Positions 1,468 to 46,331 of a stretch of 64,000 bases of DNA are shown here, piece after piece. This DNA is from Methanovulcanius yangii (GTDB taxonomy: Archaea; Halobacteriota; Methanomicrobia; Methanomicrobiales; Methanomicrobiaceae). The stretch covers positions 1,541,780 to 1,605,779 of the forward strand of contig NZ_LTBL01000001.1 of assembly GCF_018687785.1 (NCBI RefSeq), written 5' to 3'. The stretch's first letter is position 1, and every line of letters begins with the position of its first letter. The notes under the pieces were generated by a model, which worked only from the letters and a program-made list of their open reading frames with translations, did not search any database and was not told the origin of the DNA. A program made the translations under genes and the position numbers.

Positions 1468-3537
1468 TCAAGCACCTGTCGGTGCTATTTCGGCTGTATC
1501 CCCAAATAACTTGGGTCGCCGGCTGGAGAGGTCGCGGATTTTTGCAAGGAAGTCTTCCTTCTTTTCGGGCACGAGCGCGTGTTCGAGGACCTCCTCGATC
1601 TTCGTGACGGGGATGATCTCGATCATCTTCGCATACCGGTCCTCGATGACGACGTCGTCGAGGTTCGACTGCGGGATGATGACCTTTTTTATGCCCGCCT
1701 TTGCGGCGGCCTCGATCTTGTAGGTGACCCCCCCGATGGGGAGGACGTCACCCCGGACCGAGAGCGACCCGGTCATCGCGACGTCCTGCCGGACGGGGAT
1801 GTTTTCTATGGCGCTGATGACCGCGGTTGCGACCGTCACCGACGCGGAGTCGCCCTCGACGCCGCTGTAGGTCCCGATGAACTGGACGTGGACGTCCATG
1901 TTTTTGATGTCCTTGCCGGTGAACTTCTTGATAATTGCGCTCACGTTCTTGATCGATTCCTGTGCAATCTCCTTCAAGAGGCCGGTCGCGATCACGCTGC
2001 CGGTCGCCCCCTGGGTGGGGGTCACCTCGGCCATGATCGGAAGCACCGACCCGGAGTCGCTGCCCATCACCGCAAGCCCGTTGACCCTGCCTACGAGGGA
2101 GCCGTCGACGACCGTGAGGTCGTAGTCCCGGCTGCGGGTGATGTACTCGTCAGAGACCTGCTCCTCGATGGAGCGGGCCATGCTCTTTGCGGCGAGCACG
2201 TGGCGGGATGTCGCAATCTCCGCCCCTTCCTGTCGGGCCATGTCGCCCGCCACACGGATGAGACCGCCCATGTCACGGAGCTTGAGGGTGAGGTGGTCCT
2301 TGCGATTCGACCGCCGCCGGGCCTCGAGGATCATCTCCGCGATGGCGGACTGGTCGAACGGCGGAATCTTGCCGTCGTTTTTGATCTCCTGTGCGATGAA
2401 GCGGACGAACTTGTTCCGGTTCTCCGGGGTGTCGGGCATCGTCTCCTGCATGTAGACCTCGTAGCCGTACCCGCGGATACGGGACCGGAGCGCCGGGTGC
2501 ATGCCCTGGATGGCGTCCATGTTTCCTGCCGCGATCATCACGAACCGGCACGGGACGTCCTCGGTCCGGACCATCGCACCGGACGAGCGCTCGGACTGGC
2601 CGGTGATCGCAAACTGCCCCTCCTGCAGGGCGGTCAGAAGGCTCTGCTGGGAGTGCGGGGTGAGCGTGTTGATCTCGTCGATGAAGAGGACCCCCTTGTG
2701 GGCCTTGTGGATGGCCCCCGCCTCGACACGGTCGTGGGCGGGCGTCTCGAGGCCGCCGGACTGGAACGGGTCGTGGCGGACATCGCCGAGGAGCGCACCT
2801 GCGTGCGACCCGGTCGCGTCGATGAAGGGTGCGGTGGAGTCCGGCTTCGTCGAGACGAGGAGCTTCGGGACCATCGCCTCGTCCTTCGGGCGGGAGTACT
2901 GGAGCGCCATGAAGATGAAGGCGGAGGCGATGATGCCGAAGAGGAGCTGGCCGGCAATCAGGGCGTAGCCCATGATGCCGAAGATGAGGAGCATGATGAG
3001 GGTGCTTCTCGTCTGGGCACGCTTGCGGGCCTCGGCCTTGTGGGCGCCGACGATCTCCTTGCCCCGTCCCGAGGGGACGGTCCGGACGATGGGGGTGTTC
3101 GAGTCCTCCGAGTTGGGGTAGATGAGGATGTCCTGCATCTCCTCCTTGGGGAGGAGTTCCGCCATCGCCTTTGCAAGCATCGACTTGCCGGTACCGGGCG
3201 TCCCTATCATGAGGACGTGGCGGCGCTGGATGGCGGCCTTTCGCACCACCTCGACGGCGTGCTCCTGCCCTATCACCTGGTCGATGAGCTGTTCAGGGAC
3301 CTCGATGTCGGACGAGCTCTTCACCTCGGTGAGGGGAGCGTCCTCTTCAGGGGCGGGAACCGCAGCGTCTGCTGCCACCTCCCCGTCCGTCTCCGGTCCG
3401 TCGGTCGGTGCGGGGCCGTCTGCGGGTGCCTCCGGTACGGCGGCAGCATCGGTGCCGGTTGGGGCATCGTCCTGCAGAACCCCGTCTTTTGCGGGTATCA
3501 TATCATCGGATATTCTGGTATCGTTAGTATTGTCCAT
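1468..3537 (-). CDS. lon: Archaeal membrane-anchored Lon protease (LonB)
   Basis: This 689-aa ATP-dependent protease is of the archaeal LonB type. In order it has an acidic, Ala/Pro-rich N-terminal tail (about 75 aa), an AAA+ domain with Walker A GTPGTGKS at about 112-119, two membrane segments inserted within the AAA+ module at about 179-214, Walker B GVLFIDE, and a C-terminal protease domain. The catalytic dyad is Ser in EGDSAS (about residue 564) and Lys in GGVTYK (about 607), 43 residues apart as in other LonB enzymes. The membrane insertion places it on the inner face of the cell membrane. The ATG at 3537 has GAGGT 11 bases upstream; a GTG at 3555 is the alternative start. Confidence 0.95.
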   Translation of the reverse strand: MDNTNDTRISDDMIPAKDGVLQDDAPTGTDAAAVPEAPADGPAPTDGPETDGEVAADAAVPAPEEDAPLTEVKSSSDIEVPEQLIDQVIGQEHAVEVVRKAAIQRRHVLMIGTPGTGKSMLAKAMAELLPKEEMQDILIYPNSEDSNTPIVRTVPSGRGKEIVGAHKAEARKRAQTRSTLIMLLIFGIMGYALIAGQLLFGIIASAFIFMALQYSRPKDEAMVPKLLVSTKPDSTAPFIDATGSHAGALLGDVRHDPFQSGGLETPAHDRVEAGAIHKAHKGVLFIDEINTLTPHSQQSLLTALQEGQFAITGQSERSSGAMVRTEDVPCRFVMIAAGNMDAIQGMHPALRSRIRGYGYEVYMQETMPDTPENRNKFVRFIAQEIKNDGKIPPFDQSAIAEMILEARRRSNRKDHLTLKLRDMGGLIRVAGDMARQEGAEIATSRHVLAAKSMARSIEEQVSDEYITRSRDYDLTVVDGSLVGRVNGLAVMGSDSGSVLPIMAEVTPTQGATGSVIATGLLKEIAQESIKNVSAIIKKFTGKDIKNMDVHVQFIGTYSGVEGDSASVTVATAVISAIENIPVRQDVAMTGSLSVRGDVLPIGGVTYKIEAAAKAGIKKVIIPQSNLDDVVIEDRYAKMIEIIPVTKIEEVLEHALVPEKKEDFLAKIRDLSSRRPKLFGDTAEIAPTGA

Positions 3538-4480: not shown

Positions 4481-4951
4481 ATGACCGACACTCCGCCGCG
4501 AAGGCTCGTCCTCGACTCCTCCGCCTTTTTTGTTCAGATTCCCGTGGACGGGGAACTCTATACCACCCACTCGGTCGTCGCCGAACTGCATGACGTCACC
4601 TCACAGGCCCGTCTCGAGCTGCTCCGGGCGCAGGGGCTCGTCGTCCTCACCCCGGCCCCCCTCCGCTGTGCGGAGGTGCGGGCCGCGGCCGCGAAGTCCG
4701 GGGACGTGACCGTGCTTTCCCCGACCGACGTCGAGGTGCTCGCCCTCGCCCTCGAGACGGGGGCCGCCGTGATGACCGACGACTATGCCGTCCAGAACAC
4801 CGCGATGCGCCTTTCGGTCGGGGTCGTCCCGGTCCAGATGCGGGCGGCACGAAAGCGGAAATGGAAGTACCGGTGCAGCGGATGCGGCCGCTACTGGTCC
4901 CACCCGGGCGAATGCGAGGTCTGCGGCGCCGAGATCAGACGAAAGTTTTAG
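4481..4951 (+). CDS. nob1: Nob1-like PIN-domain endoribonuclease with zinc ribbon
   Basis: This 156-aa protein has an N-terminal PIN nuclease domain ([12 protein letters not shown], with the first catalytic Asp; a central Glu in [17 protein letters not shown] near residue 105 with further acidic residues). A C-terminal zinc ribbon is formed by CSGCGRYW and CEVCGAE. This is the architecture of archaeal Nob1, which cleaves pre-16S rRNA to form the mature 3' end. It begins 17 bases after prs and is followed by gfcR 28 bases later, so the three may be cotranscribed. The start is the first ATG that leaves a complete PIN domain. Confidence 0.9.
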
Positions 4952-4979
4952 TCCTTCCTGTGCCGACTCTCTACGTACT

Positions 4980-5594
4980 ATGTCATCCCTCGACGAACTG
5001 ATTGCAAAGGCAAAGATGCTCCACTCAGAGGGCCACAGCCCGTCGCAGATTGCTGATGAGCTCTCGCTTTCGATGGAGACGGTGACCTGGCTGCTCACCC
5101 AGCAGAAGGACACCGAGGCCCCCAAGGACGTCCATATCGACTGGACGGCTATTGCAGGCCACGCCGACCTCCTGCAGGCGGCGGCGTGCATGATGATCTC
5201 CCAGTACTACCATGACGAGTCCCGCTCGGAGACGGCCGCGACCGAGCCCACCCCCGACGTCGTAGTGGGCATCGGCCAGTCCGGCATCCCCCTTGCAACC
5301 CTCATCGCCGCCGAGGAGGGCTGCAACTTCACGATGTACTACCCCAAAAAGCACGCCGCGGGTGAGAAGCCGAAGGGCTCCCTCTCCGGTTCGTTTGCGA
5401 AGGTGGCAGGCGCCCGCTGCCTGATCATCGACGACGTCATCACCTCCGGCAACACCGTCCGCGAAGTCGTCGACTACCTCAGAAGCCACGGGGCCGTCCC
5501 GGCGGGTATCTGTGTCCTCTTCGACAAGCGGGGCGTAAAAGAAGTGGACGGGGTGCCGGTGCATGCACTGGTGCGGATTTCGAGGATTGATTGA
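4980..5594 (+). CDS. gfcR: GfcR: PRTase-like DNA-binding transcriptional regulator
   Basis: The 204-aa protein has an N-terminal helix-turn-helix (about residues 5-40, with [19 protein letters not shown]) fused to an orotate phosphoribosyltransferase-like domain containing the PRPP loop [16 protein letters not shown] near residue 155. In haloarchaea this family (GfcR) is a regulator of sugar and central carbon metabolism and not an enzyme; that role here is by family. The last 14-18 codons occur again as relics at about 8403 and 9971, so this gene marks the left edge of a duplicated region. It converges with the first of three tandem secreted-protein genes. Confidence 0.9.
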
Positions 5595-5756
5595 GAGCAG
5601 AATCTGATAGCTATCTCGCGAGAAGGGAAAAGAGTCCGATGGACTCTCGGAATATATATTTTTTATAATCTTGGACAAACTGGAATTTTGTATTCATTAT
5701 TCGCAGTTCACCTATGCAGGCATGCAGCAAAATCCATCCAGGTAGCATTCCCGTTG

Positions 5757-5789
5757 AGGAAAAAAAGGAAGGGGAGCATGAACGCTCCC
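5757..5789 (-). terminator. Hairpin/T-run terminator of secreted paralogue A
   Basis: On the minus strand a perfect 6-bp hairpin GGGAGC-N6-GCTCCC (5772-5789) is followed by a run of seven T (A-run on the plus strand at about 5760). It lies 28 bases beyond the stop of paralogue A. The same arrangement with a longer stem recurs after paralogue B, and an imperfect version after C, which supports a shared origin. Confidence 0.6.
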
Positions 5790-5816
5790 TGTTCTCTATC
5801 GGAGTACACCTCTTTC

Positions 5817-6887
5817 CTACACAGCGGTCATCGCAGCCGTTGTGGTATACGTGTTGCCGTCAATGGTTGTTAAGATGATGCGGGCCGTAAAGGGGGGGCT
5901 CCGAGCCCATTCAGTGGTTGGGCACAGGTCCAGGTCCTCCTCATGACACCCAATCCAGGAGTACCCGTCATCCCATGAGAACGTCGAGACCAGAGGGAGT
6001 TCCTGGGGTGGGAGGCCTGGGTATCCCGGGGAACGCACCTCGTATACATGTAATGCCTGGTAGGTTCCCCCCATCCACCACGATCCGTCGATATACCAGT
6101 CAATTCTTTGCAATACAACCCCGGGCGGGAGGTGGCTCGCATCCCAGGTTGAATCGTAGTGCAGGTTCCAGTACCAGTTATATGACTCAAAGTAGCCATC
6201 CCCAACCCTATACGGAGAATAGGTTCCTGAAACCGTCATAACAGGGGGCGTGTACGGGCACGATGAGGAATAGTCGGCCGTATAATAGACGCCCTGGTAC
6301 CCAAACATGAGCATGGTGGCGCTGTATATCTTGACATAGTCGACGGGGGCCGGCTCGGCGATCACGGTCGGCAAATCATATCCACCCTCCGCATAGGTGA
6401 TGGCGTCAAAGGGAAGATACACGGTGTAGTCGCCATAGGCGTCCGAATATATGAGGGCATAGCAGTATTCTCCTGCGACACGTTGTATCGTGCCTGTCAT
6501 CGCTAATGATGCCCCCACGCCAAAGCCCGCTTCGTCCGGGTCGGCAAAGTCCCCATCCCATCTACCCTCTATATGCAGGTTCCCGGAGGGGGTAACCTTC
6601 CCCATGGCAAACACACGGAGATCCGCACCGCCCGCCGTTTCGTAGTGTAGAACATACCGGGTACCGGGCTCAAAGTCCACCCCGTTGAAGGTGAACTTCT
6701 TCTGGCCCGGATTGATCATCAGCTTGCCCGACCCGTGCGTGTCGGTCGCCGCGACGTCATAGAAGTAGACCGACGACGCTCCCGCCTGACGAGGGTTCTC
6801 GTCCTGCTTTGCAGCAGCGACGCCCACTCCTGCGGCCGCAAGCAGCAGGATGCAGAGGGTTATCGCTATAATTCTCGTTCGTTTCAT
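5817..6887 (-). CDS. Secreted protein, tandem paralogue A (unknown function)
   Basis: This 356-aa protein starts with a clear signal peptide (MKRTR, a hydrophobic stretch ITLCILLLAAAGVGVAAA, cleavage near AAA-KQ). The N-terminal half (about 35-215, with SSVYFYDVAATDTHGSGKLM near its start) is nearly identical to paralogues B and C; the C-terminal half is variable, Tyr/Trp/Pro-rich, and ends in a shared tail of the form PPFTA..I.T.DGNTYTTT. Only two Cys remain near the end (GCHEEDLDLCP), where B and C have four or five. The start was set at MKRTR because paralogue C cannot use the upstream ATGs, and GAGATGAT precedes all three like a ribosome site. I do not recognise the family; export to the cell surface is the only safe inference. 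Confidence 0.85.
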   Translation of the reverse strand: MKRTRIIAITLCILLLAAAGVGVAAAKQDENPRQAGASSVYFYDVAATDTHGSGKLMINPGQKKFTFNGVDFEPGTRYVLHYETAGGADLRVFAMGKVTPSGNLHIEGRWDGDFADPDEAGFGVGASLAMTGTIQRVAGEYCYALIYSDAYGDYTVYLPFDAITYAEGGYDLPTVIAEPAPVDYVKIYSATMLMFGYQGVYYTADYSSSCPYTPPVMTVSGTYSPYRVGDGYFESYNWYWNLHYDSTWDASHLPPGVVLQRIDWYIDGSWWMGGTYQALHVYEVRSPGYPGLPPQELPLVSTFSWDDGYSWIGCHEEDLDLCPTTEWARSPPFTARIILTTIDGNTYTTTAAMTAV

Positions 6888-6990
6888 GTTCATCATCTCA
6901 TGGTTCAGCCGGCGGCTGTTCCGGCATGGTGTGTAGGCCGCCTGCTAAATGAATCCCAGATGGCGAACGGTGGCAATAAAGATTGGCGTG
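6888..6990 (-). promoter_or_regulatory. Conserved promoter/leader block, copy A
   Basis: About 100 bases upstream of paralogue A closely match the blocks before B and C. They contain a degenerate TATA element (minus strand GGATTCATTTAG, 6945-6956), a GCCGGAACAGCC leader hairpin candidate and a GAGATGAT ribosome site next to the start. The TATA element differs from the ATTTATTTAG of B and C, so A may be expressed more weakly. Confidence 0.6.
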
Positions 6991-7133
6991 CAATGCAGTC
7001 GATGTGGAGAGCGGCATACGGGGAGGAAGAGATGAATGCACGCCGTATGAATGTGACGGGACGTTCGCTAAATTGGCTATTTATTGAGGAGGGATCCGTC
7101 GCAGGTGGCATTCCCCATGTGGGATAAGAAGGA

Positions 7134-7157
7134 ACGGGGAGCATGGCCGCTCCCCGT
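7134..7157 (-). terminator. Hairpin terminator of secreted paralogue B
   Basis: A perfect 9-bp inverted repeat ACGGGGAGC-N6-GCTCCCCGT lies 27 bases past the stop of paralogue B and is followed on the minus strand by a T-rich tract. It matches the position and stem core of the hairpin after paralogue A. Confidence 0.6.
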
Positions 7158-7183
7158 TTCGCCACCGGCGTCGAACGCTCCCT

Positions 7184-8290
7184 TCAAAACGCAGCAGTCA
7201 TCGTAGCCGTCGTGGTATACGAGTTGCCGTCAGTGGTTGTTATGGTGATGATGGCTGTAAATGGAGGTCCTAAATCCCATTCTTCTTCCGGACAGACTTC
7301 ATCACCGCACAATGCACAGGTGGTACACCCTATCGATTCCCAGTTGGCATTTATGGAGTATGAGTTGGTCACGGGGAGTTCAATAGCCGGGAAGCCAAGC
7401 CATGCGTCAGTACGTTGCGTGTATTGGCTCAGACAGGTATGAGGTATGTTGTCTTCCCAAGGGGTGTGCCAGTCATCATACATGCCGATTATGGACCATG
7501 AAACTCTTTGCAATACAACTCCGGGCGGGAGATGGCTCGCATCATATGTTGCATGGTAGTTGAGATTCCAATACCAGTCATACCAACCCCATTCACTATT
7601 CCACTCACGATATGGCGAATAACTTCCCGAAACCGTCATAACAGGAGGCGTGTACGGGGGCGATGAGGAATAGTCAGCCGTATAATAGACGCCCTGGTAC
7701 CCAAAAATGAGCAGGGTGGAGCTGTATATCTTGACATAATCGACGGGGGCCGGCTCGGCGATCACTTTTGGCAAATCATATCCGCCCTCCGCATAGGTGA
7801 TGGCGTCAAAGGGAAGATACACGGTATAGTTCCCAAAGGCATCCGAATAGATGAGGGCGTAGCAGTATTCTCCTGCGGCACGCTGTATGGTGCCGCCCGT
7901 GATCGCCGATGATGCCCCCACGCCAAAGCCCGCTGCGCCGGGGTCGGCAAAGTTGCCTTCCCACCTCCCTTCAACATGCAGGTTCCCGGAGGGGGTTACC
8001 TGCCCCGTGGCGAAGACGCGGAGATCCGGGCTCCCTGATGTACTGTAGTGCAGGATGTACTTGGTGCCGGGCTTGAAGTCCTTCCCGTTGAGGACGAACT
8101 TCTTCTGGCCCGGATTGATCATCAGCTTGCCCGAACCGTGCGTGTCGGTCGCCGCCACATCATAGAAGTAGACCGACGACGCACCCGCCTGACGGGGGTT
8201 CTCGTCCTGCTTTGCAGCAGCGATACCTGCGCCTGCGGCCGCAAGCAGCAGGATGCAGAGCGTTATCGCTATCATTCTCGTTCGTTTCAT
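7184..8290 (-). CDS. Secreted protein, tandem paralogue B (unknown function)
   Basis: The 368-aa protein has the same signal peptide and conserved N-terminal domain as paralogues A and C. Its C-terminal part carries a Cys cluster GCTTCALCGDEVCP near residue 325 that could form disulfides or bind metal, followed by the shared GPPFTA...DGNSYTTTATM tail. The start MKRTR at 8290 is preceded by GAGATGATTCCT; an ATG 9 bases upstream is in frame but is lost in paralogue C. Divergence is concentrated in the C-terminal half, as expected if that face meets different partners. Function is unknown. Confidence 0.85.
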   Translation of the reverse strand: MKRTRMIAITLCILLLAAAGAGIAAAKQDENPRQAGASSVYFYDVAATDTHGSGKLMINPGQKKFVLNGKDFKPGTKYILHYSTSGSPDLRVFATGQVTPSGNLHVEGRWEGNFADPGAAGFGVGASSAITGGTIQRAAGEYCYALIYSDAFGNYTVYLPFDAITYAEGGYDLPKVIAEPAPVDYVKIYSSTLLIFGYQGVYYTADYSSSPPYTPPVMTVSGSYSPYREWNSEWGWYDWYWNLNYHATYDASHLPPGVVLQRVSWSIIGMYDDWHTPWEDNIPHTCLSQYTQRTDAWLGFPAIELPVTNSYSINANWESIGCTTCALCGDEVCPEEEWDLGPPFTAIITITTTDGNSYTTTATMTAAF

Positions 8291-23554: not shown

Positions 23555-23995
23555 ATGCAGAGCGCTGAAGTATATCCAATCGGCATCGTCACCTCCCCCT
23601 ACCGGAAGCACGGCGACGCTCCCCGCCAGGGCCGCCTCGACCCCGACGTCGAGATGGCAATCGAGATCCACGAAGAGTATGCGGCAGGTCTGGGGGACCT
23701 TGCCGGCATCAGCCACATCTTCGTTCTCCTCTGGTTCGACCGGGCTTCCCGGACGACCCTCACCGGCCATCCCCCGGGAGCGACGCAGAGCAGACCCGTC
23801 TTTGCCACCCGCTCCCCGCACCGGCCGAACCCCATCGGTCTCGACATCGGCAAAGTCCTCGGAGTCGACGGGCGCATCATCCGGGTCTCCGGTCTCGATG
23901 CCCTCGACGGCACCCCCGTCCTCGACATCAAACCCTACGTCCCCTCCCTCGACGCCGTTCCGGACGCGACCGAACCGTTCCGGACCGGGCGCTAA
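23555..23995 (+). CDS. trmO: TrmO-family protein (tRNA t6A37 N6-methyltransferase)
   Basis: This 146-aa protein is a compact TrmO/TsaA-fold protein: it starts AEVYPIGIVTSPYRKHGDAP, has HIFVLLWFDRA, the signature SPHRPNPIGLDIGKVLGVDG, and DGTPVLDIKPYVPSLD. The family methylates threonylcarbamoyl-adenosine 37 in tRNA using S-adenosylmethionine. The ATG at 23555 has GGAGA 6 bases upstream; earlier in-frame starts add unconserved residues. A second, more distant copy lies at 43932 in a transporter operon. Confidence 0.88.
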   Translation: MQSAEVYPIGIVTSPYRKHGDAPRQGRLDPDVEMAIEIHEEYAAGLGDLAGISHIFVLLWFDRASRTTLTGHPPGATQSRPVFATRSPHRPNPIGLDIGKVLGVDGRIIRVSGLDALDGTPVLDIKPYVPSLDAVPDATEPFRTGR

Positions 23996-33909: not shown

Positions 33910-34845
33910 CTACACGGCGACAAAGAAGACGCCGCGTTCCTCGAACCGCTCCGCAATGAGCCCCTTTGCCGCAAGGGCATCCGTGTACTTGCGAATTTCA
34001 TTCGGGTGCAGACCGCAGGTCTTTGAGAGGTCCTCGACGGTCGAGGGGCGTCGCCGGATGATCAACAGGATGGACTCCAGCGTGTCCTGCGAGAAGGAGG
34101 GGATATCCGTCCGGGTGGTCGGGCTTCGTACGATCTCCGTTGCCGGATACCCGATCCGGTCACGAAACCGCGTCATCTCGGCCTCGGTCGGTGCATGGAC
34201 CCACGCGGCGATGCCGGGGCGGTCGAGGCCGTTGAGCTGGACCAGGTCGGGACCGATCCTGCGGATCACGTCCGCAAAGAGGGCGAGCTCCCCGTCCGTG
34301 TCATTGACGCCCGGGACGACGAAGATCTCGAGCCACACCTCTCCCGGATGCTCCTGTTTGAGGGCCACCAGGCCGTCGATGATCGCATCCACCGAAAGCT
34401 CCCTGCAGGGCCGGTCGATACGTCTGAATACCTGTTCCGAGACCGCGTCCAGCGAGGGGATGACCACATGAATGTCGGCGACCTCCCGGCGCACCTGCGG
34501 GTCAAAGAAGAGGCTCCCGTTCGTCAGAAGCGCCATCCTGTATGCAGGATAGTGCTCCCGGATATGACGGGCAATCTCCCCGATACCCGTATGGAGCGTC
34601 GGCTCACCCGACCCGGCAAAGGTGATGAAATCGAGGTCCGGACCGGTCACGAGGTATTCATCCAGTTCACGGATGATGTCCTCCGTCGGAAAATACTCCT
34701 TTCGTCCGGTCGTGAGCTCCGTCGTCTTCCCGCATTCGCAGTAGACGCAGTTGTAGCTGCAGGTCTTCAGGGGGACGAGATCAATTCCCAGCGAGACGCC
34801 GAGTCGCCGGGAAGGAACCGGTCCGAAGAGATACGAAAATCCCAT
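33910..34845 (-). CDS. Radical SAM protein with C-terminal winged helix
   Basis: The 311-aa protein has the radical SAM motif C29-x3-C33-x2-C36 (CSYNCVYC) within a domain that starts SYLFGPVPSRRLGVSLGID, as in the wyosine base/COG0731 branch. FAGSGEPTLH binds SAM. After about residue 235 a short winged helix follows (ESILLIIRRRPSTVEDLSKT). The combination suggests a regulator-like substrate recognition, but the reaction is unknown. A TATA-like CCTTAATG about 30 bases before the ATG suggests a short leader. Confidence 0.85.
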   Translation of the reverse strand: MGFSYLFGPVPSRRLGVSLGIDLVPLKTCSYNCVYCECGKTTELTTGRKEYFPTEDIIRELDEYLVTGPDLDFITFAGSGEPTLHTGIGEIARHIREHYPAYRMALLTNGSLFFDPQVRREVADIHVVIPSLDAVSEQVFRRIDRPCRELSVDAIIDGLVALKQEHPGEVWLEIFVVPGVNDTDGELALFADVIRRIGPDLVQLNGLDRPGIAAWVHAPTEAEMTRFRDRIGYPATEIVRSPTTRTDIPSFSQDTLESILLIIRRRPSTVEDLSKTCGLHPNEIRKYTDALAAKGLIAERFEERGVFFVAV

Positions 34846-42237: not shown

Positions 42238-43062
42238 ATGAGTAAAAAACTGATGGGTATCGCGGCGCTCTGTGTCGCACTCCTCGCTGCCTGCATGATC
42301 TGCGGATGCACGGGAGAGGCGGCGACGGACACGCCCGCGGCCGGAACACCGGCCGCATCCGAAGAGTCCCTCGTCGTCTTCTGTGGTGCGGGACTTCGCG
42401 AACCGATGGACGAGATCGCCCAGGTCTACCAGGACCGGACGGGAACGGAGATACGGTACACCTACGGCGGTTCGGCTCAGCTGCTCTCGCAGATTGAACT
42501 CCTGCAGGAGGGCGATGCCTACATGCCCGGTGCAAAGTCGTACATCGACTCGGCCGCTGAGAAGGGCTTCATCGCCGGCAGCACTCCCTGCATCTACCAC
42601 GTGCTCGCAATTGCCGTCCAGCCCGGCAACCCGCTGAACATCACCAGCCTTGAAGACCTGACGGAGGACGGCGTCCGCGTCGCCATCGGCGAACCGACCG
42701 GCCCTGCGGTAGGCAGTGCGGCAAAGAAGATGCTTGACAAGGCGGGCTACTGGGAGGATATTCAGGACAACATCGTGGTCCGGTCCGGCACGGTGAATGA
42801 ACTGCTCGTCTACACGACGATGGACCAGGCAGACGCCGCCATCATCTGGGAAGACCTTCTCGACAACTCCGACCTCGAACAGGTCGATATCCCCATCGAC
42901 GAGGGGTTCATCAAGGTCGTCCCCATCGGCACACTGACCTTCTCCGAAAACCCGGACGAGGCAGAAGCATTCGCGGACTTCGTTGCATCTGACGAAGGAC
43001 TTGCCATCTTCGAAAAACACGGATTCGAGACCTACCCCTGCGCAAAGTACGGGGATGCCTGA
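42238..43062 (+). CDS. Molybdate/tungstate-type ABC substrate-binding lipoprotein (1)
   Basis: The 274-aa protein has a lipoprotein signal (LCVALLAACMICGCTG) and a ModA-like type II binding fold: SLVVFCGAGLREPMDEIAQV, YGGSAQLLSQIELLQEGDAY, and ADAAIIWEDLL. Family members bind molybdate, tungstate or sulfate. No strong ribosome site is present; a TATA-like GTTTAATTT near 42207 suggests a short leader. It is the first gene of a five-gene operon. Confidence 0.88.
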   Translation: MSKKLMGIAALCVALLAACMICGCTGEAATDTPAAGTPAASEESLVVFCGAGLREPMDEIAQVYQDRTGTEIRYTYGGSAQLLSQIELLQEGDAYMPGAKSYIDSAAEKGFIAGSTPCIYHVLAIAVQPGNPLNITSLEDLTEDGVRVAIGEPTGPAVGSAAKKMLDKAGYWEDIQDNIVVRSGTVNELLVYTTMDQADAAIIWEDLLDNSDLEQVDIPIDEGFIKVVPIGTLTFSENPDEAEAFADFVASDEGLAIFEKHGFETYPCAKYGDA

Positions 43063-43101
43063 TATCCGTCACCCACTCTTTTTTCGACTGACATTATCGG
43101 A

Positions 43102-43935
43102 ATGATACACATGAAACACGCACCACTACTTTGTACAGCCTGCATTCTTCTCGTCTGTGCGGCATTCTTCTGCGGATGCACGGATACCGGGAGTGCAGAG
43201 GCGGCCCCTTCCGTCGAAGCGGGCGCGGAAACGGATGAGAGCATCATTGTCTACTGCGGCGCAGGCATGCGCGAACCGATGGAGGAGATCGGCAGGGCGT
43301 TCGAGGACGAGACGGGCGTGACCGTCTGCTATACCTTTGCCGGGTCCAACACCCTCCTCTCGCAGATGGAACTGACGGAAATCGGCGACGTCTACATGCC
43401 GGGGGCCACCTACTACTTCGAGGCCGCCCAGGACAAGGGCTTTGTCGAGGAGAACTACCTCGTCGCCTACCACGTCCCCATCATCGGGGTCCCCAAGGGC
43501 AACCCGGCAAACATCACCTGCCTTGACGATCTTGCAAACGACGGCGTCGCCGTCGAACTGGGTGACCCGAGCGCCTGCGCCATCGGCAAACTCGCCAACC
43601 AGATCCTCGAGAAGAACGGGATCTTCGACGAGGTCGACGCAAATGTCGTCAGCCGCGGGGCTACGGTGAACGAACTCGTCGTCCACACGGCCCTCGGCCA
43701 GGTAGACGCCTCGATCATCTGGGAAGATCTCTACAAGCAGGACACGATGGAACGCATTGATATCCCGAATGACCAGAATATCATCAAAGTGGTACCGATC
43801 GGCCTTCTGACCTTCTCCGGGAACAAGGACGCAGCGTCCGCATTCGTGACCTTCGTCGCCGCAGAGGACGGAGGCAAGGAGATCTTCAGGAGCCATGGGT
43901 TTACCACGTACCCGAATGAGGCGTTTGAAGGATGA
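43102..43935 (+). CDS. Molybdate/tungstate-type ABC substrate-binding lipoprotein (2)
   Basis: The 277-aa protein is paralogous to the preceding gene, with lipobox AAFFCGCTD and the core SIIVYCGAGMREPMEEIGRA, FAGSNTLLSQMELTEIGDVY, and VDASIIWEDLY. The pair differ enough to bind different oxyanions or with different affinities. A T-run between them (43078-43085) may attenuate transcription. The ATG at 43102 or 43111 is the start; its TGA overlaps the next ATG. Confidence 0.88.
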   Translation: MIHMKHAPLLCTACILLVCAAFFCGCTDTGSAEAAPSVEAGAETDESIIVYCGAGMREPMEEIGRAFEDETGVTVCYTFAGSNTLLSQMELTEIGDVYMPGATYYFEAAQDKGFVEENYLVAYHVPIIGVPKGNPANITCLDDLANDGVAVELGDPSACAIGKLANQILEKNGIFDEVDANVVSRGATVNELVVHTALGQVDASIIWEDLYKQDTMERIDIPNDQNIIKVVPIGLLTFSGNKDAASAFVTFVAAEDGGKEIFRSHGFTTYPNEAFEG

Positions 43936-44462
43936 AAGAATCTGACATCAGGGAGATGAAAATCACCTATAAACCGATTGGAATCGTCCACTCCGGGCAC
44001 ACCCGGCACGAGGACACCCCCATCCAGGGAATCTTCAACCCGGCACCGGGGACCGTCGAAGTCTTCGAGGAGTATGCAGAGGGGCTGCAGGACATCGAGT
44101 CCTTCTCCCATCTCATCCTCATCTACCACTTCCACCGGGCGACCGGCAACGCCCTCGTGCAGGCCCCGTTCCTGGACGGGGAGAAGGCCCGCGGCATCTT
44201 CTCGATCCGCCACTTCAACCGCCCGAATCCCATCGGCATCTCCATCGTCGACCTGAAGGCGGTCAAAGGCACCACCCTCGAGATCAGCGGGTGCGACATC
44301 CTCGACGGGACCCCCCTCCTGGACATCAAGCCCTACGTCTACCAGTTCGACAACCGTCAGGAAGTGACGAGCGGGTGGGTGGACGGCACCCACGTCGACG
44401 ATATCCGGGAATGGAACGCAACCCCGAAGCAGCTGAGGGACCGCCGGAGGGCACACCTGTGA
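43932..44462 (+). CDS. TrmO-family protein embedded in the transporter operon
   Basis: The 176-aa protein has the TrmO/TsaA fold: ITYKPIGIVHSGHTRHEDTP, FSHLILIYHFHRAT, the signature HFNRPNPIGISIVDLKAVKG, and DGTPLLDIKPYVYQFD. A 25-residue C-terminal extension is absent in the copy at 23555. It overlaps both neighbours by 4 bases (ATGA and GTGA), so it is a true member of the transporter operon. Whether it methylates tRNA or has become a SAM-binding accessory protein is unknown. Confidence 0.87.
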   Translation: MKESDIREMKITYKPIGIVHSGHTRHEDTPIQGIFNPAPGTVEVFEEYAEGLQDIESFSHLILIYHFHRATGNALVQAPFLDGEKARGIFSIRHFNRPNPIGISIVDLKAVKGTTLEISGCDILDGTPLLDIKPYVYQFDNRQEVTSGWVDGTHVDDIREWNATPKQLRDRRRAHL

Positions 44463-45256
44463 GTGGTGATCTGCGGCGAAACGGCGTGAAGATGGCCACC
44501 ATCGCCATCGCCCTCGTCATCACCGCGTTCATCATCTCGCTCCTCCTTCTCGTCATCACCCGCCCCCACCCGGAGGCGGTCATCGAATCCCTCCTCTCGC
44601 CGGAGATCCAGTTCGCCATCTACCTGAGTCTGGTCACCTCGATCATCTCTACGCTGCTCTGTATTGCCGTCGCCGTGCCGGCGGCGTATGCACTCGCACG
44701 CTACAACTTCTTCGGCAAGAGCTTTGTGAGCATGATCCTCGACCTGCCCCTCGCCCTCCCTCCGCTCGTCGCCGGTGTGGCGCTTCTCCTCTTCTTCGGG
44801 ACGACCGCATTCGGCGATGCGCTCGCCTCCATCGGCCTGGTCTTCGTCTTCACCCCGCTCGGTATCATCATTGCCCAGTTCTTCGTGAACCTGCCCTTCA
44901 TGCTGCGCATCATGCGCTCCACCTTCACGGACATATCCCCACGGTACGAGTATGTCGCCTGTACCCTCGGGTGCACGAACCTGCAGGCGATCCGCCGGGT
45001 GACCCTTCCCATGGCGGGAAGCGGCTTTCTCGCGGGTGCGGTGATCACCTGGGCAAAGGGAATCGGCGAGTTCGGGGCGGCCCTGATGATCGCGGGAGCC
45101 ACCCGCATGAAGACCGAGACCCTGCCGATCTCGCTCTTCCTGAATATGTCATGCGGTGAACTCGAACTCGCTCTCTCGGCGGCGATCATCCTGATCGTCA
45201 TCTCTGTCGTATCGCTCTATATCTTCGAGCTCTACGGAGGCTCGGCGAAATTCTAA
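44459..45256 (+). CDS. ABC permease, molybdate/tungstate type
   Basis: The 265-aa protein has six membrane helices and the ATPase-contact loop EYVACTLGCTNLQAIRRVTL-type EAA motif near residue 170. The segment AALMIAGATRMKTETLPISL is characteristic of ModB/WtpB/CysT permeases. The GTG at 44459 overlaps the upstream stop; an ATG at 44492 is the alternative, removing a short polar leader. Confidence 0.9.
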   Translation: MSGDLRRNGVKMATIAIALVITAFIISLLLLVITRPHPEAVIESLLSPEIQFAIYLSLVTSIISTLLCIAVAVPAAYALARYNFFGKSFVSMILDLPLALPPLVAGVALLLFFGTTAFGDALASIGLVFVFTPLGIIIAQFFVNLPFMLRIMRSTFTDISPRYEYVACTLGCTNLQAIRRVTLPMAGSGFLAGAVITWAKGIGEFGAALMIAGATRMKTETLPISLFLNMSCGELELALSAAIILIVISVVSLYIFELYGGSAKF

Positions 45257-45269
45257 AGGAGGAAAAAAC

Positions 45270-46331
45270 GTGCTATCCATACAGAACATCTCAAAGGATC
45301 TTGGAGAGTTCCTCCTCGATGACATCTCCCTCACGATCGGCGAGGGCGAGTACTTCGTGATCATCGGCCCCACCGGAGCGGGCAAGACGATCCTCCTCGA
45401 GACCATTGCCGGCATCTACCCCCCGGACGCGGGGAGCGTTGCCATCGGCGGGCGGGATGTCACCTTCGCCCCGCCACGGGAACGCAATGTGACGATGGTC
45501 TACCAGGACTACATGCTCTTCCCCCACCTCACGGTGGAGCAGAACATCGGGTTCGGTCTCGAGTACCGCAAGGTGCCCCCGGAGGAGCGAACGGCAAAGG
45601 TGCAGGAGGTCGCGGAGATCTTCGGCATCGGCCACCTGCTCCACCGGTACCCCGAGACCCTCTCGGGCGGGGAACAGCAGCGGGCCGCCATATCAAGGGC
45701 CATCGTCCTCGAACCGGCCGTGCTCCTGCTCGACGAACCGCTCAGCGCCCTCGATGGGCAGACCCGCGAGCGTCTCCGCCATGAACTGAGAAAACTCCAT
45801 GCGCGATACAGAACGACGATCATCCACATCACCCACAACTTCGACGAGGTCTTTTCCCTCGCATCCCGGGTTGCGGTGATGAACAAGGGCAGGGTTGTCC
45901 AGACCGGCACCCCGGAAGACGTCTTCCGTCATCCCGAGTCATCGTTTGTCGCGCAATTTGTCGGGGTCCAGAACATCTTCTCCGGCACCTGCACCACGGA
46001 AGACGCCCTGAGCAGGATCAGTGTGCCCCGGCCCGACAGCACCGACGCGCTCTTCTGTTCGCTCACCCCCCACCCCGGGGAGACGGCGACCGTCACCATC
46101 CGGCCCGAGGACATCATGATCGGGCGGGACACCTGTACCACCTCTGCCCGCAATTCATTCGAGGGAACCGTGACCGATATCGTGGACAACGGCATGGTGG
46201 TCGCGGTGCACGTCGATGCCGGCCTCCCCTTCATCGCCTATGTCAGCCGGCAGGGATGGGCGGCGGTAGGGGCCGCCGTCGGCGATACCGTACACCTCAC
46301 CATCATGGCGGATGCGGTGCACGTCTTCTGA
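45270..46331 (+). CDS. ABC ATPase, molybdate/tungstate type
   Basis: The 353-aa ATPase has Walker A GPTGAGKT (about residue 34), Q-loop YQDYMLFP, signature LSGGEQQR, Walker B VLLLDEPLSALD and H-loop HITHNFDE. A C-terminal TOBE/MOP-like domain follows (FCSLTPHPGETATVTIRPED, then FEGTVTDIVDNGM), typical of ModC/WtpC. AGGAGG lies 7 bases before the GTG start. It completes the operon. Confidence 0.92.
   Translation: MLSIQNISKDLGEFLLDDISLTIGEGEYFVIIGPTGAGKTILLETIAGIYPPDAGSVAIGGRDVTFAPPRERNVTMVYQDYMLFPHLTVEQNIGFGLEYRKVPPEERTAKVQEVAEIFGIGHLLHRYPETLSGGEQQRAAISRAIVLEPAVLLLDEPLSALDGQTRERLRHELRKLHARYRTTIIHITHNFDEVFSLASRVAVMNKGRVVQTGTPEDVFRHPESSFVAQFVGVQNIFSGTCTTEDALSRISVPRPDSTDALFCSLTPHPGETATVTIRPEDIMIGRDTCTTSARNSFEGTVTDIVDNGMVVAVHVDAGLPFIAYVSRQGWAAVGAAVGDTVHLTIMADAVHVF

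Follow-up and report, generated by a model that had tools for sequence, protein, structure and literature searches.

What a relative of the tRNA methyltransferase TrmO does inside a metal oxyanion import operon is the question raised by a stretch of 64,000 nucleotides from Methanovulcanius yangii (contig NZ_LTBL01000001.1, positions 1,541,780 to 1,605,779 of the forward strand), which we call the window. Five genes were confirmed on its + strand at 42238-46331, in the order first substrate-binding protein (SBP1), second substrate-binding protein (SBP2), TrmO-like protein, permease and ATPase. From the conservation of this arrangement and from the neighbors of related genes, we consider it fairly probable that the operonic protein is a specialized TrmO/YaeB beta-barrel (class VIII) member of the S-adenosylmethionine (SAM)-dependent methyltransferase superfamily that serves molybdate/tungstate supply, and not methylation of N6-threonylcarbamoyladenosine at tRNA position 37 (t6A37).

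The operon and its TrmO-like protein

The preliminary description of the window had placed the TrmO-like gene strictly within the operon, and this was confirmed. The gene lies on the same strand as its neighbors and overlaps both the SBP2 and the permease genes by 4 bases (Table 1), the usual sign of translational coupling. A ModA-type binding protein, a ModB-type permease and a ModC-type ATPase lie adjacent on one strand, as expected of a ModABC/WtpABC import operon, and the NCBIfam scores of the binding proteins, permease and ATPase favored molybdate/tungstate over sulfate as the predicted substrate. The transport components belong to the same families as those of known ModABC/WtpABC importers; we know of no such operon with a SAM-binding gene inserted between binding protein and permease.

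The TrmO-like protein exceeded the cut-offs of TIGR00104 (128.2 vs 93.25 bits) and PF01980 (TrmO_N; 134.9 vs 26.8). In the alignment, Q32, R93, D122 and K133 correspond to Q22, R82, D111 and K122 of Archaeoglobus AF0241, so that the four SAM-binding residues, as listed in the available part of PMC4132733, are intact. The AlphaFold model, built from a 77-row alignment, had a mean predicted local distance difference test score of 92.7. Its best PDB match was 2nv4, AF0241 with SAM (TM 0.94 by target, root-mean-square deviation 1.3), and the ten top Foldseek chains were all YaeB/TrmO, which identifies the predicted fold as the TrmO beta-barrel. The protein ends after this barrel and lacks the C-terminal domain with the DPRxxY motif. 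TrmO_C (PF18389) was found nowhere in the whole genome, while the E. coli control was positive.

To place the protein within its family, 184 TrmO domains were aligned and a FastTree tree was built. The operonic proteins fell in a large branch of 168 rows, all of which carry F58 and 166 of which carry W149. The window copy carries both F95 and the G148-W149 pair; the latter is absent from the E. coli and P. aeruginosa proteins, from AF0241 and from a second TrmO_N protein at 23555 in the window. Phe95, two residues from the SAM-binding Arg93, occurs in 43 rows of the large branch, most rows having Pro instead. ModA/ModB lay nearby for 38 of these 43 proteins. When only loci chosen by the tool and with enough flank were counted, ModA/ModB was found within 1.4 kb of 16 of 20 F95 proteins vs 15 of 100 others; the rows are related, and the Fisher value for this comparison should not be read as the probability of the hypothesis. 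Phe95 next to the SAM-binding Arg is the mark of the operonic subfamily, which is largely one clade in the tree (26 rows, 24 of them with modABC). We propose a molybdenum (Mo)-linked TrmO subfamily, recognizable in sequence by F95 next to Arg93 together with G148-W149.

Comparison with known relatives sets this subfamily apart. E. coli TrmO/YaeB, the enzyme forming the methylated product m6t6A37, and its P. aeruginosa counterpart (7btu/7btz/7bu1) share with it the N-terminal beta-barrel, the SAM residues, TIGR00104 and PF01980, but the window protein lacks TrmO_C, has F95 and G148-W149, lies on a separate deep branch and stands in an operon context. AF0241 is likewise a single domain with the same four SAM residues and the best fold match; however, it pairs with the 23555 copy and not with the operonic protein, and the portion of its sequence that was inspected lacks the G-W motif. 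Rhodopseudomonas palustris RPA0152 (3okx) is also single-domain and YaeB-like, but its separate branch lacks the G-W motif. Of five kin that were fetched, two (L103 and L112; L numbers denote fetched genomic regions) lie beside Peripla_BP_2/FecCD-type importers, L112 also with MoeA.

Genomic linkage to molybdenum and tungsten genes

To survey the neighborhoods of relatives, both the TrmO and the permease genes were searched in 28 genomes of the same taxonomic family, which yielded 78 full-length TrmO rows after 4 partial ones had been dropped. Permeases above the TIGR01581 cut-off numbered 35, in 25 of the 28 genomes. A TrmO_N gene stood directly upstream on the same strand of 19 of them (18 genomes), at a near-constant spacing of 200-227 bases between profile ends, and within 2.5 kb in other arrangements for 6 more. 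Among 80 sampled genomes of the phylum, with 33 above-cut-off permeases in 27 genomes, TrmO lay within 1 kb of 9 permeases and within 2.5 kb of 11, where random placement gives 0.07 and 0.19, respectively. With 11 of 33 observed against about 0.2 expected, the linkage of TrmO and permease is not due to chance, and it is retained in relatives in both the family and the phylum, contrary to the absence from relatives that would have counted against the preliminary description. That the TrmO gene is a coincidental neighbor kept by descent in one methanogen lineage, as the largely single clade might suggest, is disfavored by these counts and by separate cases in other phyla with other gene orders, and we give it almost no weight.

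Sixteen of the first 20 neighborhoods fetched, which were hand-picked from the match list and serve as illustration and not as an estimate, contained TrmO with a binding protein, permease and ATPase set (exceptions L035, L036, L037 and L040). Some operons have a second TrmO gene upstream of the binding protein (L038, L039, L042, L043 and L085). In L053, TrmO shares 85% identity with the window copy and the permease beside it only 58% with the window permease, which suggests that TrmO has been exchanged between divergent operons without its partner. This TrmO gene lies at 6476-7006 (-); in a second operon of the same genome (L052), TrmO is 75% and the permease 85% identical.

Regions beyond the order were read in a second batch of 20, partly chosen for permeases nearby. 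In ten of them (L082-L091), TrmO lay near molybdate-type importers, several also with MOT1, MoeA, Fwd or nitrogenase genes; a gene in L086 read as NifX proved to be AnfO. TrmO adjoins FmdE in L096, lies near a match to the MobB hidden Markov model (HMM) in L097, and is inside NifX/MinD clusters in L099 and L101. L100 holds a TrmO_N-FmdE fusion beside an ATP-binding cassette (ABC) importer; the same fusion (TrmO_N as UPF0066), and one of FmdE with a molybdopterin-binding domain, is reported in the available part of PMC2954224. L092-L095 and L098 had no trusted panel gene near TrmO.

Twelve plasmid regions from bacteria and haloarchaea were also read, two of them (L103, L113) without annotation. 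Comamonas antarctica carries tsaA-modA-modB-ATPase, with modA and modB above cut-off, Ketogulonicigenium carries MoeA-DUF2478-TrmO with a Peripla_BP_2-type ABC importer, and Dongshaea carries TrmO-TauE-DUF364-NifX-DUF134; seven annotated plasmid records showed no Mo neighbor. Further independent mod-linked cases were found in Variovorax (L117-L120), Pseudodesulfovibrio (L165, ModABC-TrmO) and Chloroflexi (L130). Other TrmO genes adjoin Mop genes, MOT1 (L170, L149), Peripla_BP_2/FecCD importers (L103, L112) or a NifX/MinD cluster (L128), and DUF364 stands beside TrmO in L037, L038, L109, L121 and L122. DUF364 (PF04016) and FmdE (PF02663) differ from TrmO in fold; both are its recurrent neighbors or fusion partners with a published Mo/tungsten (W) context. 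For DUF364, the available part of PMC2954201 describes a molybdate/tungstate/vanadium genome context and proposes from structure that it synthesizes a compound for rare metals, of flavin, pterin or siderophore-like type.

Genome contigs were scanned by TrmO similarity alone, which gave 80 loci. Pfam families were tallied for the first 150 of 176 neighbors within 600 bases and for the first 150 of 176 genes drawn at random from 311 lying at least 3.5 kb away. The near set included Radical_SAM (6), TOBE (5), SBP_bac_11 (4), TauE (4), Nitro_FeMo-Co (4), Oxidored_molyb (3) and MFS_MOT1 (2), whereas no Mo family was among the top 25 of the distant set (each with at least 2 members). Our own HMM panel gave 31 features in 421,876 near bases vs 5 in 298,111 distant bases, a biased count, since the neighbors had been read before the panel was chosen, so that the Pfam tallies are the fairer comparison. 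The HMMs "Mop" and "TupA" drifted (81 and 52 members taken in), and Pfam TOBE was used instead and the TupA label ignored; matches to the "SulP" HMM were MFS_MOT1. In 6 of 132 loci, TrmO escaped the gene caller, and six-frame searches were made afterwards.

Regulatory rather than positional evidence came from L121, a Chloroflexi metagenome-assembled genome. An RF01055 Moco/tungsten riboswitch was detected at 6596-6758 (64.8 bits, gathering score 36, E 6e-13), with the TrmO frame downstream of it (ATG at 6924, open reading frame end at 7412). A second RF01055 aptamer at 7552-7713 (65.7 bits) precedes the next gene; an Mo hydroxylase set lies upstream, and DUF364 and an importer downstream. Folding of the stretch from riboswitch to ATG revealed no unusual stability. 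In the window operon, the Rfam scan found no riboswitch, its sole match being a sub-threshold snoRNA. Aligned operon leaders of six family genomes likewise gave no clear operator; they share a short A/T-rich stretch with TTAAC ahead of the start codon and CATATGAG at the start.

Candidate functions

The preliminary description had proposed a new role for the operonic TrmO. A tie to Mo/W is supported by the conserved operon, the bacterial relatives and the riboswitch, although two companion claims, on a canonical second copy and on a division of Mo and W between the binding proteins, did not hold (see below). Since this TrmO branch is built into Mo/W operons and its bacterial relatives also tend to stand beside molybdenum genes, it probably serves metal-cofactor supply and not tRNA. 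In the sequence of events that we favor, the importer would first deliver molybdate or tungstate, and the TrmO-like enzyme would then modify a ligand of this metal path with the help of SAM; the ligand would be either a protein that handles the metal or a small molecule (pterin, cofactor intermediate or chelator). This lies close to the cofactor-precursor processing that had been suggested. A methylated pterin or chelator is a reasonable, unproven candidate because of the compound proposed for the neighboring DUF364. Action by contact with one particular importer is improbable, since relatives of the enzyme adjoin unrelated transporters and TrmO has seemingly been swapped between divergent operons. 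More broadly, and more tentatively, the large COG1720/TrmO branch of archaea and bacteria may represent an unrecognized SAM-dependent step in Mo/W acquisition or cofactor maturation, in which a metal-carrying pterin, cofactor intermediate or chelator might be methylated.

Several observations weigh against this assignment. Ten of the 35 family permeases have no TrmO nearby, three phylum genomes with an above-cut-off permease have no TrmO at all, and the tallies are inflated by descent, related genomes not being independent. No panel gene was found within 3.5 kb for 99 of the 184 tree rows, partly because of short flanks, and TrmO lies with a peptide-type ABC importer in L105 and with 5-oxoprolinase/carboxylase genes in L107. 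RF01055 occurred in one of the 80 loci picked by TrmO similarity, and that in a metagenome-assembled genome. In L169, cobalamin aptamers flank TrmO and CbiK precedes it, so the family is not tied exclusively to Mo, and operons for other metal cofactors may likewise have acquired TrmO-like genes. The L169 order (5686-7678) is CbiK under a cobalamin riboswitch, TrmO, a second cobalamin riboswitch and a TonB receptor. Seven Burkholderiales-type genomes (L114-L120) encode the GW-type protein as their sole TrmO_N member, and no TrmO_C was found in them, so that the protein may have a tRNA role there; no mod genes lie close by in L114 and L116. One TrmO_N copy in the genome of the window is fused to RNase H, so that some TrmO relatives may act on nucleic acid. 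Net charge, taken as a test of RNA binding, averaged -4.8 for mod-linked proteins vs -2.8 for the rest, a difference too slight to serve as evidence.

The Burkholderiales-type genomes and the RNase H fusion would both suit a protein that is still an RNA methyltransferase, whose target would be t6A37 or some other site in RNA and whose link to Mo/W supply would be one of shared regulation alone, for instance to tune the translation of Mo/W enzymes. The TIGR00104 score, the TrmO fold and the four SAM residues are consistent with this as well. We nevertheless regard it as unlikely. No TrmO_C is present, and the available part of PMC4132733 states that E. coli TrmO requires DPRxxY in its C-terminal domain, that the motif is missing from all archaeal homologs and that archaeal tRNA had not, at that time, been found to contain m6t6A. 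A housekeeping tRNA role also fails to predict up to 7 copies per genome, the repeated Mo neighbors and an Mo/W riboswitch.

Regulation of uptake, which had also been suggested, would make the protein a SAM-responsive accessory subunit that gates the importer by contact and without catalysis. Its apparent cotranslation with the permease, its constant position between binding protein and permease, and the paired TrmO genes that flank the binding protein in five operons all fit such a subunit. Its relatives, however, stand by MOT1, Peripla_BP_2/FecCD importers and NifX/MinD clusters (L099, L101, L128), and the identities in L053 suggest exchange without the partner. We rate this subunit role as somewhat less probable again than RNA methylation; we prefer catalysis to a structural role, given the retained SAM residues and the presence of relatives beside transporters as unrelated as ModABC, MOT1 and Peripla_BP_2/FecCD. 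SAM-dependent detoxifying enzymes occur in other folds, and protective methylation of toxic selenium, arsenic or tellurium oxyanions, or of their reduced forms, entering by the molybdate importer would fit a SAM enzyme coupled to it; the neighbors are instead Mo-cofactor and Mo-storage genes, and no arsenic/tellurium family appeared in the near-gene Pfam tally, which leaves this explanation highly improbable.

If the broader reading is correct, a COG1720 branch annotated as tRNA t6A37 methyltransferase would serve Mo/W instead, across methanogen importer operons, Mo-storage, FeMo-co-type and FmdE/DUF364 contexts and at least one Moco riboswitch leader. The available part of PMC4132733 (2014) reports seven paralogs in Methanoculleus marisnigri and leaves the archaeal target open; the operon linkage, bacterial counterparts and riboswitch now offer a concrete hypothesis for these archaeal TrmO/YaeB homologs. 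Among open-licence PMC texts, we found no paper that links Mo or W transport to TrmO/YaeB/TsaA; PMC2954224 and PMC6365646 come closest, and in its available part, the latter mentions tsaA with moaA among P. simiae deoxyribose-phenotype genes, which its authors dropped as inconsistent. Variovorax, Comamonas and Pseudodesulfovibrio are possibly tractable organisms.

Binding proteins, other TrmO_N copies and neighboring genes

Table 1. Positions of the operon genes, their overlaps and the second TrmO_N protein in the window.
Feature	Position	Strand	Basis
SBP1, ModA-type oxyanion-binding lipoprotein	42238..43062	+	PF13531; NCBIfam modA 95.1 bits vs cut-off 62.5
SBP2, second ModA-type binding lipoprotein	43102..43935	+	NCBIfam modA 76.2 bits vs cut-off 62.5
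TrmO-like single-domain SAM-binding protein, 176 amino acids	43932..44462	+	TIGR00104 and Pfam TrmO_N above cut-off
ATGA overlap, 4 bases; SBP2 stop / TrmO-like start	43932..43935	+	
GTGA overlap, 4 bases; permease start / TrmO-like stop	44459..44462	+	
ModB/WtpB-type permease, GTG start	44459..45256	+	TIGR01581 Mo_ABC_porter 239.6 vs cut-off 210.3
ModC/WtpC-type ATPase with TOBE domains	45270..46331	+	WtpC best match, 420.3 bits, below cut-off 440
Second TrmO_N protein, AF0241-like, outside the operon	23555..23995	+	TIGR00104 144.5 bits

The two binding proteins share 47% identity, and SBP2 is no recent duplicate of SBP1. SBP1 has a conserved lipobox GC and a 92% identical ortholog in a genome of the same genus (G115), whose operon (L050) has a single binding protein. 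SBP2 groups with a binding protein from another family (tree support 92); in the sister genus, a separate duplication gave rise to a different pair. The identity, the single protein in G115 and the separate duplication lend no support to the idea that the pair separates Mo from W. The nearest solved structures to SBP2 are molybdate-binding ModA proteins; in SBP2, a Gly is aligned with the first-shell Ser of ModA.

The genome has four TrmO_N genes, not two. The 23555 copy had been described as a canonical trmO. The gene is real but is neither canonical nor of E. coli TrmO type: it pairs with AF0241 (FastTree support 89; 52% identity), and the genome encodes no TrmO_C domain. The third copy, fused behind the RNase H domain, lies at 1471-2430 (-) of L003 (contig C1, about 430,000) and adjoins an Mrp-like ATPase that matches the MinD HMM; similar-sized long TrmO frames occur in relatives. 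The fourth copy (L004 / L036 6555-7097; C1, about 1,196,700) may be a non-catalytic member because the SAM-binding Gln and Arg are lost, Arg being replaced by Cys. Low-scoring copies like it recur in the family.

Other fused or long forms were seen elsewhere. In L078, from an archaeon of the same phylum, a DJ-1/PfpI domain is fused ahead of TrmO_N (1411-2448, -). L183 contains a 720-amino-acid frame (4758-6920, +) with TrmO_N in its C-terminal part and no Pfam match in its N-terminal part, with a FecB-FecCD-ATPase importer set immediately ahead of it and a second TrmO following it.

Small conserved proteins of about 70 and about 270 amino acids recur near Mo operons (L047, L048, L054, L091) and begin MKIYVRER and M.KR.EI.NKLQGE or alike. 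The window also encodes a radical SAM protein at 33916-34836 (-; HMM score 301), and proteins of the same kind lie near TrmO in L037, L099, L171, L176 and L184.

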